From positions 124,001 to 188,000 of the forward strand of contig NZ_BDFE01000009.1 in assembly GCF_001748225.1 (NCBI RefSeq): a DNA stretch of 64,000 nucleotides. Direction: 5' to 3'. Made by a program: the position numbers and the translations under genes. The notes below the pieces were generated by a model, which was given only the letters and a program-made list of their open reading frames with translations, ran no database searches and had not been told where the DNA came from. Below are positions 34,432 through 39,935 of this stretch, one piece after another. Positions within the stretch are counted from its first letter, which is position 1; every line of letters starts with the position of its first letter. Origin of the DNA: Desulfoplanes formicivorans. Its GTDB lineage: Bacteria > Desulfobacterota > Desulfovibrionia > Desulfovibrionales > Desulfomicrobiaceae.

Positions 34432-34450
34432 TCCTGACAAATACATCACG

Positions 34451-34489
34451 CACAAGGGGCAGATGGTGGCGAACCATCTGCCCCTTGTG
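34451..34489. terminator. Long perfect inverted repeat after the UDP-sugar dehydrogenase, probable terminator
   Basis: A 17-bp perfect stem, CACAAGGGGCAGATGGT with its complement, has a 5-nt loop. The T-run after it is short, so it may stop transcription weakly or protect the RNA 3' end. Confidence 0.6.
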
Positions 34490-34709
34490 TTTATGTTCCA
34501 TGGTCGTTGATGGGCATCTGCCGCGCGCCGGCAGGTTGTTCGGGTCCGGGTCCCTTGCCGGTGACGGCTCCTTACAGCCTCATGTGGCTGGCTCGCAGGG
34601 CCGGGAGGATCATGCCTGAGCCGGGGACCTTGTTTGCGTGTCAATGCGTTTGGGAGTAGAAAGCGTGTTTTCACCTGTTGTTGACCTTTCCCTTAACCGG
34701 AAGCGGATC

Positions 34710-37022
34710 ATGATTCACCATAACGTACTTCAGACCCTTGGCAGGACGCCCCTTGTTCGCATCAACCGTCTCAACCCCAATCCCGGGGTGATCATTGCCG
34801 GAAAGATGGAAGTTGCCAATCCCGGGGGTTCCATCAAAGACCGGGTGGCCCTGGCCATGATCGAGGCCGCTGAAAAGCAGGGCATTCTGACCCGGGACAA
34901 GATCATCATCGAACCGACTTCCGGGAATACGGGCATTGGACTGGCCATGGTCTGCGCGGTCAAGGGGTACAGACTCATGCTGCTCATGCCGGAATCGGCC
35001 TCGGAGGAACGCAAGAAGATTCTGCGTGCCTATGGTGCCGATATCCGCCTGACTCCCGGGCACCTGGCTACTGACGGGGCCATTGAGGAAGCTTACCGGC
35101 TGGCCCGTGAAGAACCGGATACCTATGTGCTCATGGACCAGTACAACAATGCGGCCTGCATTGAGGCCCATTACCGGGGAACCGGTCAGGAAATCTGGGA
35201 TCAGACCGATGGCCAGGTCACCCATGTGATCGCTTGTCTGGGCACTTCGGGCACGGCCATGGGTATCTGCAAGCGACTCAAGGAACTGAATTCGACCATT
35301 GAGGTCATTGCTGTGGAACCCTATGCCGGGCATCGCATCCAGGGGCTCAAAAACATGCAGGAGTCCTATCCACCAGGTATCTATGACAAACATGCCCTGG
35401 ACCGTATCATTCATGTGGACGATGAGGATGCTTTTGCCATGTGTCGGGATTTGGCCCGCAAGGAAGGGCTTTTTGTGGGCATGAGCAGCGGTGCGGCCAT
35501 GGCCGGTGCTGTTCAGGTGGCGCGTGATCTCACGTCCGGGCTGATGGTGTGTATCCTGCCGGATGGAGGGGATCGGTACTTGTCCACTCCGCTGTTCACA
35601 CCGCCGGCAAAAACAGGCATGGGACTGTTGGATACCAGAACGCAATCCCTGGTGTATCCGGCAGCATCGAGCCGGGCACTGGGGCTGTTCACCTTTGGCC
35701 CCAGTCTGGAGCGGGTCACCGAGCTTGAGCCCTGGCGAAGGGTGGTCCTTTTGGATGTCATCCGCCGGTACACGGAGTTCAAGGGGGGACAAGCCCGTGC
35801 GGTTGTGGGCATTGCCGATTATGACGACAGGACCATTCTCGGGGCCAGGGAGTCCAAGGTTTCCCGGGAAGCGTTTACCCGCATGCGCATGCAGTCGGTG
35901 GCGGCAACAGCCCGGATGCTGGGGGTGGGGGAAGAGGCCGTGTTCGAACCGGCGAGCAACCATGTCCAGACCATGCTGGGCCTGTGCGAGAAACTGCTGG
36001 AAAAGGGTCTTGCCTACGAGAAGCTCAGGTCCGTGTATTTCGATATCATGCGAGACAAGGAGTACGGGGATCTGAGCTGCATTGACCTGAACAAGCTGAG
36101 CCTTGGCAAGACCGTGGATCTGACGGATTATGTCAAGGAGAATCCGCGTGATTTTACCCTGTTCAAAAGGGCCACCTTGCAGGATCTCAAGGAGGGAACC
36201 TGTCTGAAGACCAAGTGGGGCAATGTTCGGCCCTCCTGGTATTTGCAGATGGCCGGTATCGGGGTCGATCTGCTTGATGATATTGGTGTCTGCCTGGCCG
36301 GAACCAATCAGGTTTTTCCCCATCTGGAAAATCTGCGTTCCATCTGGGCGGTGGAACACAAGGCTGGGGTCAAGGCCTGGATGGTTTCCCATGGGGTGGA
36401 TCGCAAGTCAGACGAGTTTTCCCTGTGCGATATGGAGGAATGTCTTGCCCTGGGCATTGAGCCGAGGGCCATCAGAATGTGGCTGCTGGCATCGTCCTAT
36501 CACAAGCCCCTGACGGCCTCCCGGGACAATCTGGTCATGTGGCAGCGCAATTGGCGTCATGTCCAGGATCTGGTGGTCACCCTGTGGGCCGATAGCTTTG
36601 GAGACCATGGCGGGGTGAGCCAGGAGGTCAGACAGGCCCTGTTCGACCTCAAGCAGGGATTTGGAGATGCCTTTGACACGGATCTGGGGCTGCATCATTT
36701 CTGGCCGGAGCTGTTCAAATTCTGCAAGATGGTCAAGCAGCTGCATGCAGCTGGCGGTTTGAACCGTGCCGGAGCCCTGGCGTGCCGGGATCAGCTGGAG
36801 TCCATGGATAAGGTCTTGGGCATCGTGGATTACTCAGGGATTCCCTTGGGGGAAAGTGCCTACAGCGAGGCCATCCGGGAGTTGATCAACAAGCGGGCCC
36901 TGGCGCGCAGACAAAAGGATTTCAAGGCTGCCGACGCACTGCGCGACGAGATCGCAGCCGCTGGATTCCGTATCGTGGACACCCGGGACGGGGTGCGGGT
37001 GTATCGGCAGGATGCAGGATGA
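34710..37022 (+). CDS. Cysteine synthase (CysM/CBS-type) fused to a degenerate cysteinyl-tRNA synthetase-like domain
   Basis: A protein of 770 aa. Residues 1-300 are a complete PLP-dependent cysteine synthase: Lys43 in NPGGSIKDR, TSGNTG, the GTSGT phosphate cup, and PDGGDRYLST as in CysM/CBS. Residues about 320-770 align by eye along the whole cysteinyl-tRNA synthetase order: FGPSLERV (for CGPTVYD), GIADYDDRTI (for NITDIDDKI), a YGDLS segment, NPRDFTLFK, SWYLQM (for GWHIEC) and NQVFPHLEN (for DLIFPHHEN). The HIGH motif, KMSKS and the zinc Cys residues are replaced, so the domain should not aminoacylate. A role as regulator, tRNA/cysteine sensor or scaffold is inferred. The ATG at 34710 matches the start of the synthase fold. 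Confidence 0.85.
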   Translation: MIHHNVLQTLGRTPLVRINRLNPNPGVIIAGKMEVANPGGSIKDRVALAMIEAAEKQGILTRDKIIIEPTSGNTGIGLAMVCAVKGYRLMLLMPESASEERKKILRAYGADIRLTPGHLATDGAIEEAYRLAREEPDTYVLMDQYNNAACIEAHYRGTGQEIWDQTDGQVTHVIACLGTSGTAMGICKRLKELNSTIEVIAVEPYAGHRIQGLKNMQESYPPGIYDKHALDRIIHVDDEDAFAMCRDLARKEGLFVGMSSGAAMAGAVQVARDLTSGLMVCILPDGGDRYLSTPLFTPPAKTGMGLLDTRTQSLVYPAASSRALGLFTFGPSLERVTELEPWRRVVLLDVIRRYTEFKGGQARAVVGIADYDDRTILGARESKVSREAFTRMRMQSVAATARMLGVGEEAVFEPASNHVQTMLGLCEKLLEKGLAYEKLRSVYFDIMRDKEYGDLSCIDLNKLSLGKTVDLTDYVKENPRDFTLFKRATLQDLKEGTCLKTKWGNVRPSWYLQMAGIGVDLLDDIGVCLAGTNQVFPHLENLRSIWAVEHKAGVKAWMVSHGVDRKSDEFSLCDMEECLALGIEPRAIRMWLLASSYHKPLTASRDNLVMWQRNWRHVQDLVVTLWADSFGDHGGVSQEVRQALFDLKQGFGDAFDTDLGLHHFWPELFKFCKMVKQLHAAGGLNRAGALACRDQLESMDKVLGIVDYSGIPLGESAYSEAIRELINKRALARRQKDFKAADALRDEIAAAGFRIVDTRDGVRVYRQDAG

Positions 37023-37167: not shown

Positions 37168-37755
37168 TTACTCCCGTATATAATCGAATCCGTCCGGGCC
37201 GCAGATGGACTTGAGGAGATTCAGGATTTTCTGGCACCGGTCCGCATCGTCTTCGGCCCGGGGAATGAAGGTGGGCCTGCCGTTTCTGCCAAAGGTGAAT
37301 CGTCTGGGACAAACGCCGGGGTCCACATCGCCGAAGATGATTCTGGCCAGATCATATTCCTTGTGCGGGCCAAAGCCCAGATTCAGGGCAAAATGCACGC
37401 ATTGGTCCACAAGCTTGCAACAGCATGCCGGGTGAATGGTCTCCAGGGGCGCTTGTTCATTGGTCTTGCGGATGCGCTCCTGGTACGTTGCTTCGTCCAT
37501 GACATTGGCGTAGGCGGTGCGGACGCCAAGACAGAATACGTCCAGCCTGAAGACTCCTGCCGCTATCTCCCCGGTGATCAGCTTTCTGCTGAAGATGGCA
37601 TACCCGATTCCCTTTTCAAAGAGATTGCTTGAGACAAGGGTCTCATGCAGGTCGCAAACCACGGATGCCTGGTATTTGGCCCTGGTTTCTGCGTAACGGA
37701 TCAGATTCTGATATTTTTTCCGAAGGGGAGCGCAATAATGGGCAAGAAAAGACAT
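37168..37755 (-). CDS. Cys-rich protein of unknown function
   Basis: A protein of 195 aa, cytoplasmic by composition. The central region has HPACCCKLVDQCVHF, and later Cys residues (GVCPRRF, ADRC, SICGPDG) could form a metal or Fe-S site. Basic and aromatic residues are common. I do not recognise the family. It faces the synthase/CysRS fusion gene tail to tail, 145 nt apart. The start at MSFLAHY is chosen over an upstream start, but the ribosome site is weak in both cases. Confidence 0.65.
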   Translation of the reverse strand: MSFLAHYCAPLRKKYQNLIRYAETRAKYQASVVCDLHETLVSSNLFEKGIGYAIFSRKLITGEIAAGVFRLDVFCLGVRTAYANVMDEATYQERIRKTNEQAPLETIHPACCCKLVDQCVHFALNLGFGPHKEYDLARIIFGDVDPGVCPRRFTFGRNGRPTFIPRAEDDADRCQKILNLLKSICGPDGFDYIRE

Positions 37756-38012
37756 GGACGTCGTGAAGGGTTGCAATGGTTGGCCGGACAACGGTGTATT
37801 GCCTATACCAAGAATGATCGTTCGTAAATATTGACTTCCCGGGGATCGGTTTTATCAAGATGCTCGCTTCCGTTATGGCGGAACAGGTGTGGAAAGACGC
37901 AGAGACAATCAGGCGCTGATCGGGCCATCCGGTCCTGATCGGGTCACGCCCTGTTGGCCGGGCGTTACCGTCTTTTTTTGAAGTCCATAGTCAGTGTACA
38001 CAAGGAGAGAAT

Positions 38013-39935
38013 ATGGCTGCAGCACAGGAACATTGCGAGTTCAAGACCGAAATCAAAAAACTTTTGGATATCATAACCAATTCCCTGTACACCAACCGTG
38101 AGATTTTTTTGCGTGAACTGGTGTCCAACGCTTCTGATGCCCTGGACAAGCTCCGTTTCGAGACCAGCAGGGGCACCGAGGTCAAGGATCCGGATCTTCC
38201 CTTGGAGATTACCCTTGAGGCCGACGACAACAAGCATGTCCTGACCCTCAAGGATACGGGTATCGGCATGAGCCGGGATGAAATTGTCCGGTTTCTGGGA
38301 ACCATTGCCCATTCGGGTTCCGAACAGTTTCTGGAAAACATGGCCCGGGAAAGCAAGGAGAACAAGGACGCCAGCGATATCATTGGCCGCTTTGGTGTGG
38401 GCTTTTATTCCGTATTCATGGTTGCCCACAAGGTTGTGGTCACGTCGCAATCCTATAGAAGCGACGAGAAACCGGTACGTTGGACTTCGGACGGATTGGG
38501 TTCCTATGACGTGGAAACCCTGGACGAATCTTTGCCCCGGGGAACAACCATTGAGATCCATCTCAAGGAAGACCACAAGGAGTATGCCACCGAGAACCGC
38601 ATCAAGCACATCATCAAGACCCACTCCAACTTCATTTCTTTCCCCATCAAAATGGGTGAGGAAACCGTGAACCAGGTCACGGCCCTGTGGCGGGAGCCCA
38701 AATTTTCCGTCAAGCAGGAACAATATGACGAGTTCTACAAGTTTTTGACCTATGACAGCGAACCGCCCCTGGAGACCCTGCACATATCCGTGGATGCCCC
38801 GGTGCAGTTCAAGGCCCTCATGTTCATCCCCAAGAAGGACTACGACATTTTCAACCAGGAGCGGGACAAGTACGGGCTTGATCTTTATGTGCGACGGGTT
38901 CTCATTCAGAAAGAAAACAAGGACCTTCTGCCCCAGTACCTCGGATTCATGAAGGGGGTTGTGGACACCGAAGACCTCCCCTTGAACATTTCTCGTGAAA
39001 CCCTGCAGGAAAATCGGGTCATCGCCAAGATCAAGTCCACCATCACCAAGCAGATTCTTTCGGCCCTGGAAAAGATGGCCAAGAGCGATCCGGACAAGTA
39101 CGCCGCATTCTGGAAGGAACACTCCAAGATCTTCAAGATCGGGTACATGGATTTTGCCCACAAGGACCGCTTTGCCGGCCTGCTCCGGTTCAATTCGTCC
39201 ATCCACGAGAGCAAGGATGAATTGACCTCTCTGGCCGATTACATCTCCCGGGCCAAGGAAGGGCAAAAGGAAATCTATTACATCTCGGGCCAGAGCAGAG
39301 AAGCCGTGGAACTCAATCCCCATTTCGAAATTTTCAGGAAAAAGGGGATCGAGGTGCTTTATCTTTACGAGCCCATTGACGAGTTTGCTCTGGAGGCCGT
39401 GGGCGAGTTCGAGAAGTTCAAGCTCAAGGCAGCTGAAAATGCGGATCTCAAAAACCTTGATGATTTTGCCGACACCGACAAGGACGAGAAAAAACCGGTG
39501 GAAGAACTCTCCAAGGACGACTCCAAGATCCTGGATCGGCTTTTGAAGAAGATGCAGGATATTCTGGGAGAAAAGGTCACCGAGGTCCGGCTGTCCGACC
39601 GCCTGACCACCAGCCCGGCCTGCCTGGTCAGCCCGGACGGCACCATGAGTTCCCACATGCAGAAGATCATGCGCCTTGTGGGCGGCGGTGCCAAGGATGA
39701 TACCATTCCTCCCAAGGCCATGGAAATCAATGCCGATCATCCCCTGGTCCGGAACCTGATTGCCATATTCGGCGCGGACGAAAACGATCTCTATCTGGGC
39801 GCGTGTATCGAGCAGCTTTACGAGTCGTCACTTCTTCTTGAGGGGTATCTTTCGGATCCCCACAAGATGGTCAACCGGATCAACGAGTTGTTGGAACAGT
39901 CCAGCGGATGGTACAAGGAAGTCAAGAAGGTGTAA
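38013..39935 (+). CDS. htpG: Chaperone HtpG (Hsp90)
   Basis: A protein of 640 aa, near the 624 aa of E. coli HtpG. The N-terminal GHKL ATPase has [15 protein letters not shown], the DTGIGM lid motif and [11 protein letters not shown]. Middle and dimerisation domains follow in the expected order; the middle-domain catalytic Arg lies in [10 protein letters not shown] short acidic insertion ([17 protein letters not shown]) sits before the C-terminal domain. AAGGAG precedes the ATG. It is probably monocistronic or linked to moxR. Confidence 0.97.

Follow-up and report, generated by a model that had tools for sequence, protein, structure and literature searches.

A cysteine synthase fused to a non-charging cysteinyl-tRNA synthetase-like domain and its possible control by tRNA-Cys

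In the 64,000-nucleotide stretch of Desulfoplanes formicivorans DNA analysed here (the window; contig NZ_BDFE01000009.1, positions 124,001 to 188,000), a single uninterrupted forward-strand frame runs from an ATG at 34710 to a stop codon at 37020–37022, encoding a 770-residue protein (770 codons; P0001) in which profile searches and the frames of relatives identify a cysteine synthase joined to a cysteinyl-tRNA synthetase (CysRS)-like domain. A Shine–Dalgarno-like GGAAG run lies just 5′ of the ATG. A strong intrinsic-terminator-like hairpin followed by a T run (34450–34490, forward strand; 18 pairs, 10 of them G–C; a pattern match only) lies between the fusion gene and an upstream UDP-sugar dehydrogenase gene, and the first predicted frame 3′ of the fusion gene is convergent; the gene is therefore probably its own transcription unit. 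On the reverse strand, 37168–37791 encodes a 207-residue protein without a Pfam match, followed by htpG (38013–39935); the 207-residue protein is conserved and also adjoins the fusion in a same-genus relative (L015/L128). Across the loci compared, the neighbours of the fusion differ from lineage to lineage, which rules out operon partners, and no biosynthetic genes adjoin it. An Rfam scan of the window returned no riboswitch, T-box or other RNA at gathering score.

The same open frame is found in 44 order-level relatives, and the loci of about 40 further genomes are likewise open, excluding a frameshift or split-gene artefact. Selenocysteine at in-frame TGA codons, flagged in five relatives, was rejected, as those codons are terminal stops only. 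In the host order, the fusion is present in 45 of 61 genomes (44 frames of 766–897 residues and one truncated at the end of its contig). Sampling of 395 genomes across the phylum places it in at least 150, spanning roughly 50 family-level groups; the 150 matches listed each score at least 366 bits and have a frame open for 740 residues or more, with the provisos that draft assemblies may miss genes and that matches within one family are not independent events. Ratios of dN/dS in close pairs are low in the CysRS part (0.07–0.23) and in the synthase part (0.02–0.14), indicating that both halves are under purifying selection. The fusion of a cysteine synthase with a CysRS-like domain, as first read from this frame, is thus real and not an accident of assembly.

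Two whole genera of the host order have no fusion and carry standalone synthases instead (g12: G030, G034, G038, G042, G046, G054 and G057; g3: G003, G005 and G007), absences that suggest secondary loss or replacement. One assembly (G048; 89% complete, 5% contamination) contains two fusion genes that are sisters in the tree described below (G048:C51:3372-4730 and G048:C161:2834-4198; L115 and L116), reflecting either a duplication or a contaminant. At another locus (G194:C2; L186), the fusion frame is open for 1403 residues and may be further fused or may be an open GC-rich frame.

All parts of the protein are encoded on the forward strand. The cysteine synthase domain occupies residues 1–300 (34710–35609; assigned by TIGR01136, PALP and alignment) and is followed by a very short linker at about residues 301–304 (35610–35621), the boundary of which is approximate, being drawn from profile and Pfam limits and the structure model. 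The CysRS-like domain is full length (residues 304–770) and comprises a Rossmann/catalytic part aligned with canonical CysRS (residues 304–603; 35619–36518), a helical bundle defined by the structure model and alignment (residues 606–716; 36525–36857) and an anticodon-binding domain defined by Pfam and alignment (residues 717–770; 36858–37019). The inserted domain carries a family-specific conserved block apparent in the fusion alignment (residues 431–520; 36000–36269), with the motif AYEKLRSVYFD...TVDLxDYxKxNPRDFTLxKRATLxxLKxG...TxWGNVRPSW. Residues 306–766 cover positions 3–465 of the 466 in the TIGR00435 cysS profile (E 5e-45), bearing out the CysRS order of this half, with a score of 154 bits that lies below the cut-off of 340 and so does not reach the CysRS family threshold. 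Pfam detects PALP and tRNA-synt_1e, with CysS_C at 22.6 bits, just under its cut-off of 23. The AlphaFold2 model of the fusion protein has a mean pLDDT of 87 and a pTM of 0.70, and Foldseek matches its C-terminal half to chain B of 1U0B (1u0b_B) over 488 columns with a TM-score of 0.74 normalized by the target.

The synthase half is complete. Residues 1–300 score 358 bits against TIGR01136 (cysteine synthase; cut-off 344) and contain the Schiff-base lysine K43 and the pyridoxal phosphate-enzyme motifs TSGNTG (70–75), GTSGT (178–182) and PDGGDRYLS (284–292). The pyridoxal phosphate-enzyme residues originally noted here extend to the family as a whole: K43, S71, N73, T74, Q144, G178, T179, G181, S259, D285 and S292 are present in all 88 fusions having those columns.

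The adenylation and zinc sites of the CysRS-like half, by comparison with canonical CysRS, are largely gone from the window protein. HIGH is replaced by ELEP (residues 338–341) followed by W342, the KMSKS loop is deleted near residues 565–569 (DRKSDEF), and no catalytic motif appears at a shifted position in the alignment. Three zinc ligands (E. coli numbering) are substituted: Cys28 by F329, Cys209 by M514 and Glu238 by L542. The original prediction that HIGH, KMSKS and the zinc-binding Cys and His residues had all been replaced is thus correct for both motifs and three ligands but not for the zinc histidine, since His234 persists as H538, the one of four ligands left, invariant across fusions within an equally invariant F-P-H-x-(E/D)-N segment (its F nearly so). 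Further family-specific invariants are R344 and, in the inserted domain, E437, K438, Y474, R487 and K494. Among 41 sequences of the host order, including the window, the HIGH glycine has become Asp or Glu in 32, Trp directly follows the HIGH site in 38, and throughout the order the KMSKS loop has been either removed or overwritten and the zinc Cys residues are gone.

Across all 89 fusions, exact HIGH and exact KMSKS both occur in none, and yet the proposed catalytic death applies to the lineage of the window and several others rather than to the whole family: early-branching members retain every zinc ligand, HLGL or HLGN, and KMSRS, a near-intact set, whereas three zinc ligands and both motifs are missing from the host order and from the lineage sister to it. 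Residual adenylation is therefore very unlikely in the window protein and possible in the early-branching members, which may still adenylate. We regard it as highly improbable overall that the domain remains catalytic, activating cysteine or another acid or ligating cysteine to a small molecule, given the order-wide erosion of these sites, the aromatic residue that follows the altered HIGH site and the fusion's want of biosynthetic neighbours. Handover of cysteine or an adenylated intermediate, and ligation of the type carried out by the mycothiol cysteine ligase MshC, had both been suggested; each requires the adenylation site and zinc that the window protein has lost, and is accordingly unlikely there, the second also because the anticodon domain is kept, the reverse of MshC.

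Protein synthesis does not depend on this domain for charging. The D. formicivorans genome (3.0 Mb, 100% complete) encodes a separate canonical cysS (G000:C17:466107-467555; 570 bits), and relatives do likewise, which rules out the fusion as the cell's only CysRS, as had been anticipated. A canonical cysS scores above the cut-off in 58 of the 61 genomes of the order, the exceptions being three drafts (G006, G021 and G036), and the fusion and a canonical cysS also occur together in all eight genomes to which other deltaproteobacterial loci led. A DNA-pattern search for tRNA-Cys genes gave no match and is no guide to their copy number.

What the domain has kept is concentrated at the other end of the fold. 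Window residues R729, R733, F738, D742, R745 and D757 correspond to E. coli CysRS R423, R427, W432, D436, R439 and D451, of which R423, R427, W432 and D436 contact anticodon nucleotide G34 in the CysRS–tRNA-Cys structure 1U0B (PMC12684709). The equivalents of R423, D436, R439 and D451 are present in 89 of 89 fusions, position 432 is aromatic in all 89, and position 427 is Arg or Lys in 86. Of the positions invariant in canonical CysRS, the host order keeps a fraction of 0.76 in the anticodon domain and 0.53 in the inserted domain, against 0.31 and 0.30 in the Rossmann halves and 0.37 in the helical bundle; for the anticodon contact set, the enrichment is modest (hypergeometric p 0.015), the anticodon domain being small. 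Together these patterns suggest that the window protein has lost charging and kept tRNA reading.

Of the functions first suggested for the domain, the sensing of tRNA-Cys is the best match, given that the anticodon-reading residues survive where the catalytic ones are lost, with binding itself predicted from residue conservation. It is distinctly unlikely, in our estimation, that the CysRS-like part merely stabilizes or assembles the synthase: the fold has indeed outlasted catalysis, and the surface Arg and Asp residues could be kept for structural reasons, but the invariants include the polar or charged Y474, K476, D481, K486, R487, K494, R729, D742, R745 and D757 and not the core alone. The main rival to tRNA-Cys control is a small-ligand sensor, in which the remodelled pocket would bind cysteine, the acceptor substrate or a nucleotide and feed back on the synthase with no tRNA involved, leaving the anticodon domain as a structural leftover. 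HisZ, a catalytically inactive HisRS paralogue, provides the precedent, regulating the first enzyme of histidine synthesis by activating HisG and mediating inhibition by histidine (PMC10795190). The pocket around H538, Q513, W510 and N541 is highly conserved, and W342, W546 and Q513 are new, lineage-specific residues, features that such a sensor would account for; the anticodon contacts, however, are the best-retained canonical residues outside the core, and the window protein lacks three of the four zinc ligands with which CysRS holds the cysteine thiolate. Free-cysteine sensing, another of the original suggestions, may still operate, but by a route other than the usual zinc site. We consider allostery of this kind unlikely, if a genuine contender.

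Returning to the proposed loss of charging with retention of tRNA reading, a quick tree that combines the CysRS-like domains of 89 fusions with 11 canonical CysRS, built with the motif columns excluded, places the fusions in a single clade (100% SH-aLRT), with 28 of its 96 branches weak. On this tree, both adenylation motifs were lost at least five to six times, the exact number being soft. The gradient from near-intact to dead domains offers a natural series for testing which of the synthetase's parts are in use. Additional CysRS paralogues of about 424–500 residues, covering profile positions 1 to about 405 and having no anticodon domain, occur in four genomes (G052:C203:8997-10112, G052:C14:1952-3088, G051:C66:7349-8584, G059:C54:11953-13188 and G068:C34:19106-20356, the last being L165) and are likely to represent CysRS* from the SelC*/SelB* system reported by Mukai et al.

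The genomic context of the synthase half bears on why such control might exist. The D. formicivorans genome has a cysE–cysK pair besides the fusion, which is therefore a second synthase there. We compared 41 genomes that carry the fusion, almost every one representing a different family, counting CysE at 130 bits or more. The fusion is the sole CysK-like gene in 21, and CysE is found in none of these (G119 has a 116-bit hexapeptide match, under the threshold); in the remaining 20, a standalone CysK accompanies the fusion and CysE is always present. This segregation (21/21 versus 20/20) gives a Fisher p of 4e-12, uncorrected for relatedness. Within the host order, G023, G027 and G036 have the fusion as their only synthase and no CysE, and the fusion-only G035 and G039 show nothing closer to CysE than weak matches near 110 bits. 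As fusion-only genomes manage without CysE, the synthase half appears to work independently of it.

The acceptor is likely to be O-phosphoserine. Outside the host order, SerA is present in 20 of the 21 fusion-only genomes and MetX is missing from 20 of 21, which argues against a MetX-type serine acyltransferase in place of CysE; in the host order, MetX is present in G023, G035 and G039. In the CysM of Mycobacterium tuberculosis, Arg220 binds the phosphate of O-phosphoserine; the equivalent position in fusions is Lys, not Arg. This lysine, K214 (in GLKNM), is invariant in fusions and aligns without gaps to residue 220 of the M. tuberculosis structure 3DWI. Together with CysE independence, these observations favour O-phosphoserine on comparative grounds. 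The GLK motif is an imperfect marker of CysE independence, as G078 deviates and several CysE-bearing genomes also have this type. Four standalone synthases without a CysRS part (L221–L224, in G084, G107, G121 and G184) carry GLK[NH][LM] in genomes without CysE.

Classical SerC is found in 8 of the 21 fusion-only genomes, and six more have only a weak class-V aminotransferase match for it, several of these adjoining serA. Within the host order, most genomes that rely on the fusion alone yielded no SerA or classical SerC, and the D. formicivorans genome has neither a SerA match at E 1e-80 nor a classical SerC; a gap in the serine pathway is known in Desulfovibrio (PMC7311316). The supply of O-phosphoserine within this order is thus unproven.

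On this basis we tentatively propose, with confidence somewhat short of even, that the cysteine synthase is controlled by its fused pseudo-CysRS. The synthase half would join sulfide, plentiful in sulfate reducers, to an acceptor that does not come from CysE, most likely O-phosphoserine. The pseudo-CysRS would dock tRNA-Cys through its GCA anticodon, neither activating nor attaching cysteine, and occupancy, probably by uncharged as opposed to charged tRNA, would alter synthase activity. A shortage of cysteine would raise uncharged tRNA-Cys, its binding would raise synthase activity (the sign of this effect being our supposition), and the arrangement would replace the feedback that CysE provides in the ordinary pathway; a pathway lacking that feedback point is one in which tRNA-Cys-responsive control would be useful. 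Fusion-free relatives rely on a standalone synthase alone, which counts against the proposal at least insofar as regulation by the fusion cannot be obligatory; so does the fusion's place as a second synthase in D. formicivorans. That the fusion is, throughout its range in the phylum, a CysE-independent, O-phosphoserine-using synthase gated by tRNA-Cys, in which charging was lost at least five to six times and reading was kept, is a broader claim that we consider rather unlikely.

The same retained reading residues and lost charging would also suit a scaffold, in which tRNA-Cys or canonical CysRS serves as a platform that delivers fresh cysteine beside the charging enzyme with no allostery, and, as the gene is probably transcribed alone and its neighbours are not conserved, any such link would lie within the protein. 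Binding of tRNA-Cys by the fusion would, however, compete with canonical CysRS, and we judge this arrangement improbable.

If tRNA-Cys does control the enzyme, translation demand would be tied to amino-acid synthesis directly at the protein level, a link that HisZ, which senses an amino acid, and GCN2, which senses tRNA, parallel only in part. Sulfate-reducing and related bacteria commonly carry the family, and the fusion as sole cysteine synthase is a marker of a CysE-free cysteine route. Automated annotation as 'cysteine synthase' masks the fusion, with the risk that reconstructed pathways are given the wrong substrate and overlook the regulation. D. vulgaris DVU0663, a possible instance of the fusion, is named cysK in PMC3431258.

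Our search of the open-access literature, outside of which subscription papers fall, found no paper on the fusion, an enzyme common in bacteria and yet apparently undescribed. It shares the full-length fold, domain order and anticodon-contact residues of canonical CysRS (TIGR00435; for example, 1U0B) and differs in having lost HIGH, KMSKS and zinc ligands while coexisting with a canonical copy. Its synthase half resembles the O-phosphoserine sulfhydrylase CysM of M. tuberculosis in being a CysM-type pyridoxal phosphate enzyme whose residue equivalent to position 220 is basic and which apparently needs no CysE, and is unlike it in having Lys at that position and an attached CysRS domain. As with HisZ and the short-form ATP phosphoribosyltransferase HisG, a dead synthetase paralogue is joined to a biosynthetic enzyme for the same amino acid; HisZ, however, is a separate chain of class II fold without an anticodon domain, whereas the CysRS-like part belongs to class I, is joined covalently to the synthase and retains its anticodon residues. 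A 2022 review covering paralogues of aminoacyl-tRNA synthetases names just two for CysRS, MshC and CysRS* (PMC9437257). MshC likewise acts outside translation, but it keeps ATP-dependent cysteine activation and works without tRNA (PMC2922099, PMC9437257), whereas the fusion has lost the activation motifs and kept the tRNA-reading residues and anticodon domain. CysRS* of Desulfobacterales comes from the same phylum and, as far as the review summarizes Mukai et al. 2017, is unfused, lacks the anticodon domain and charges SelC* (PMC9437257); compared with that summary, the fusion, with its anticodon domain in place, shows the opposite pattern.
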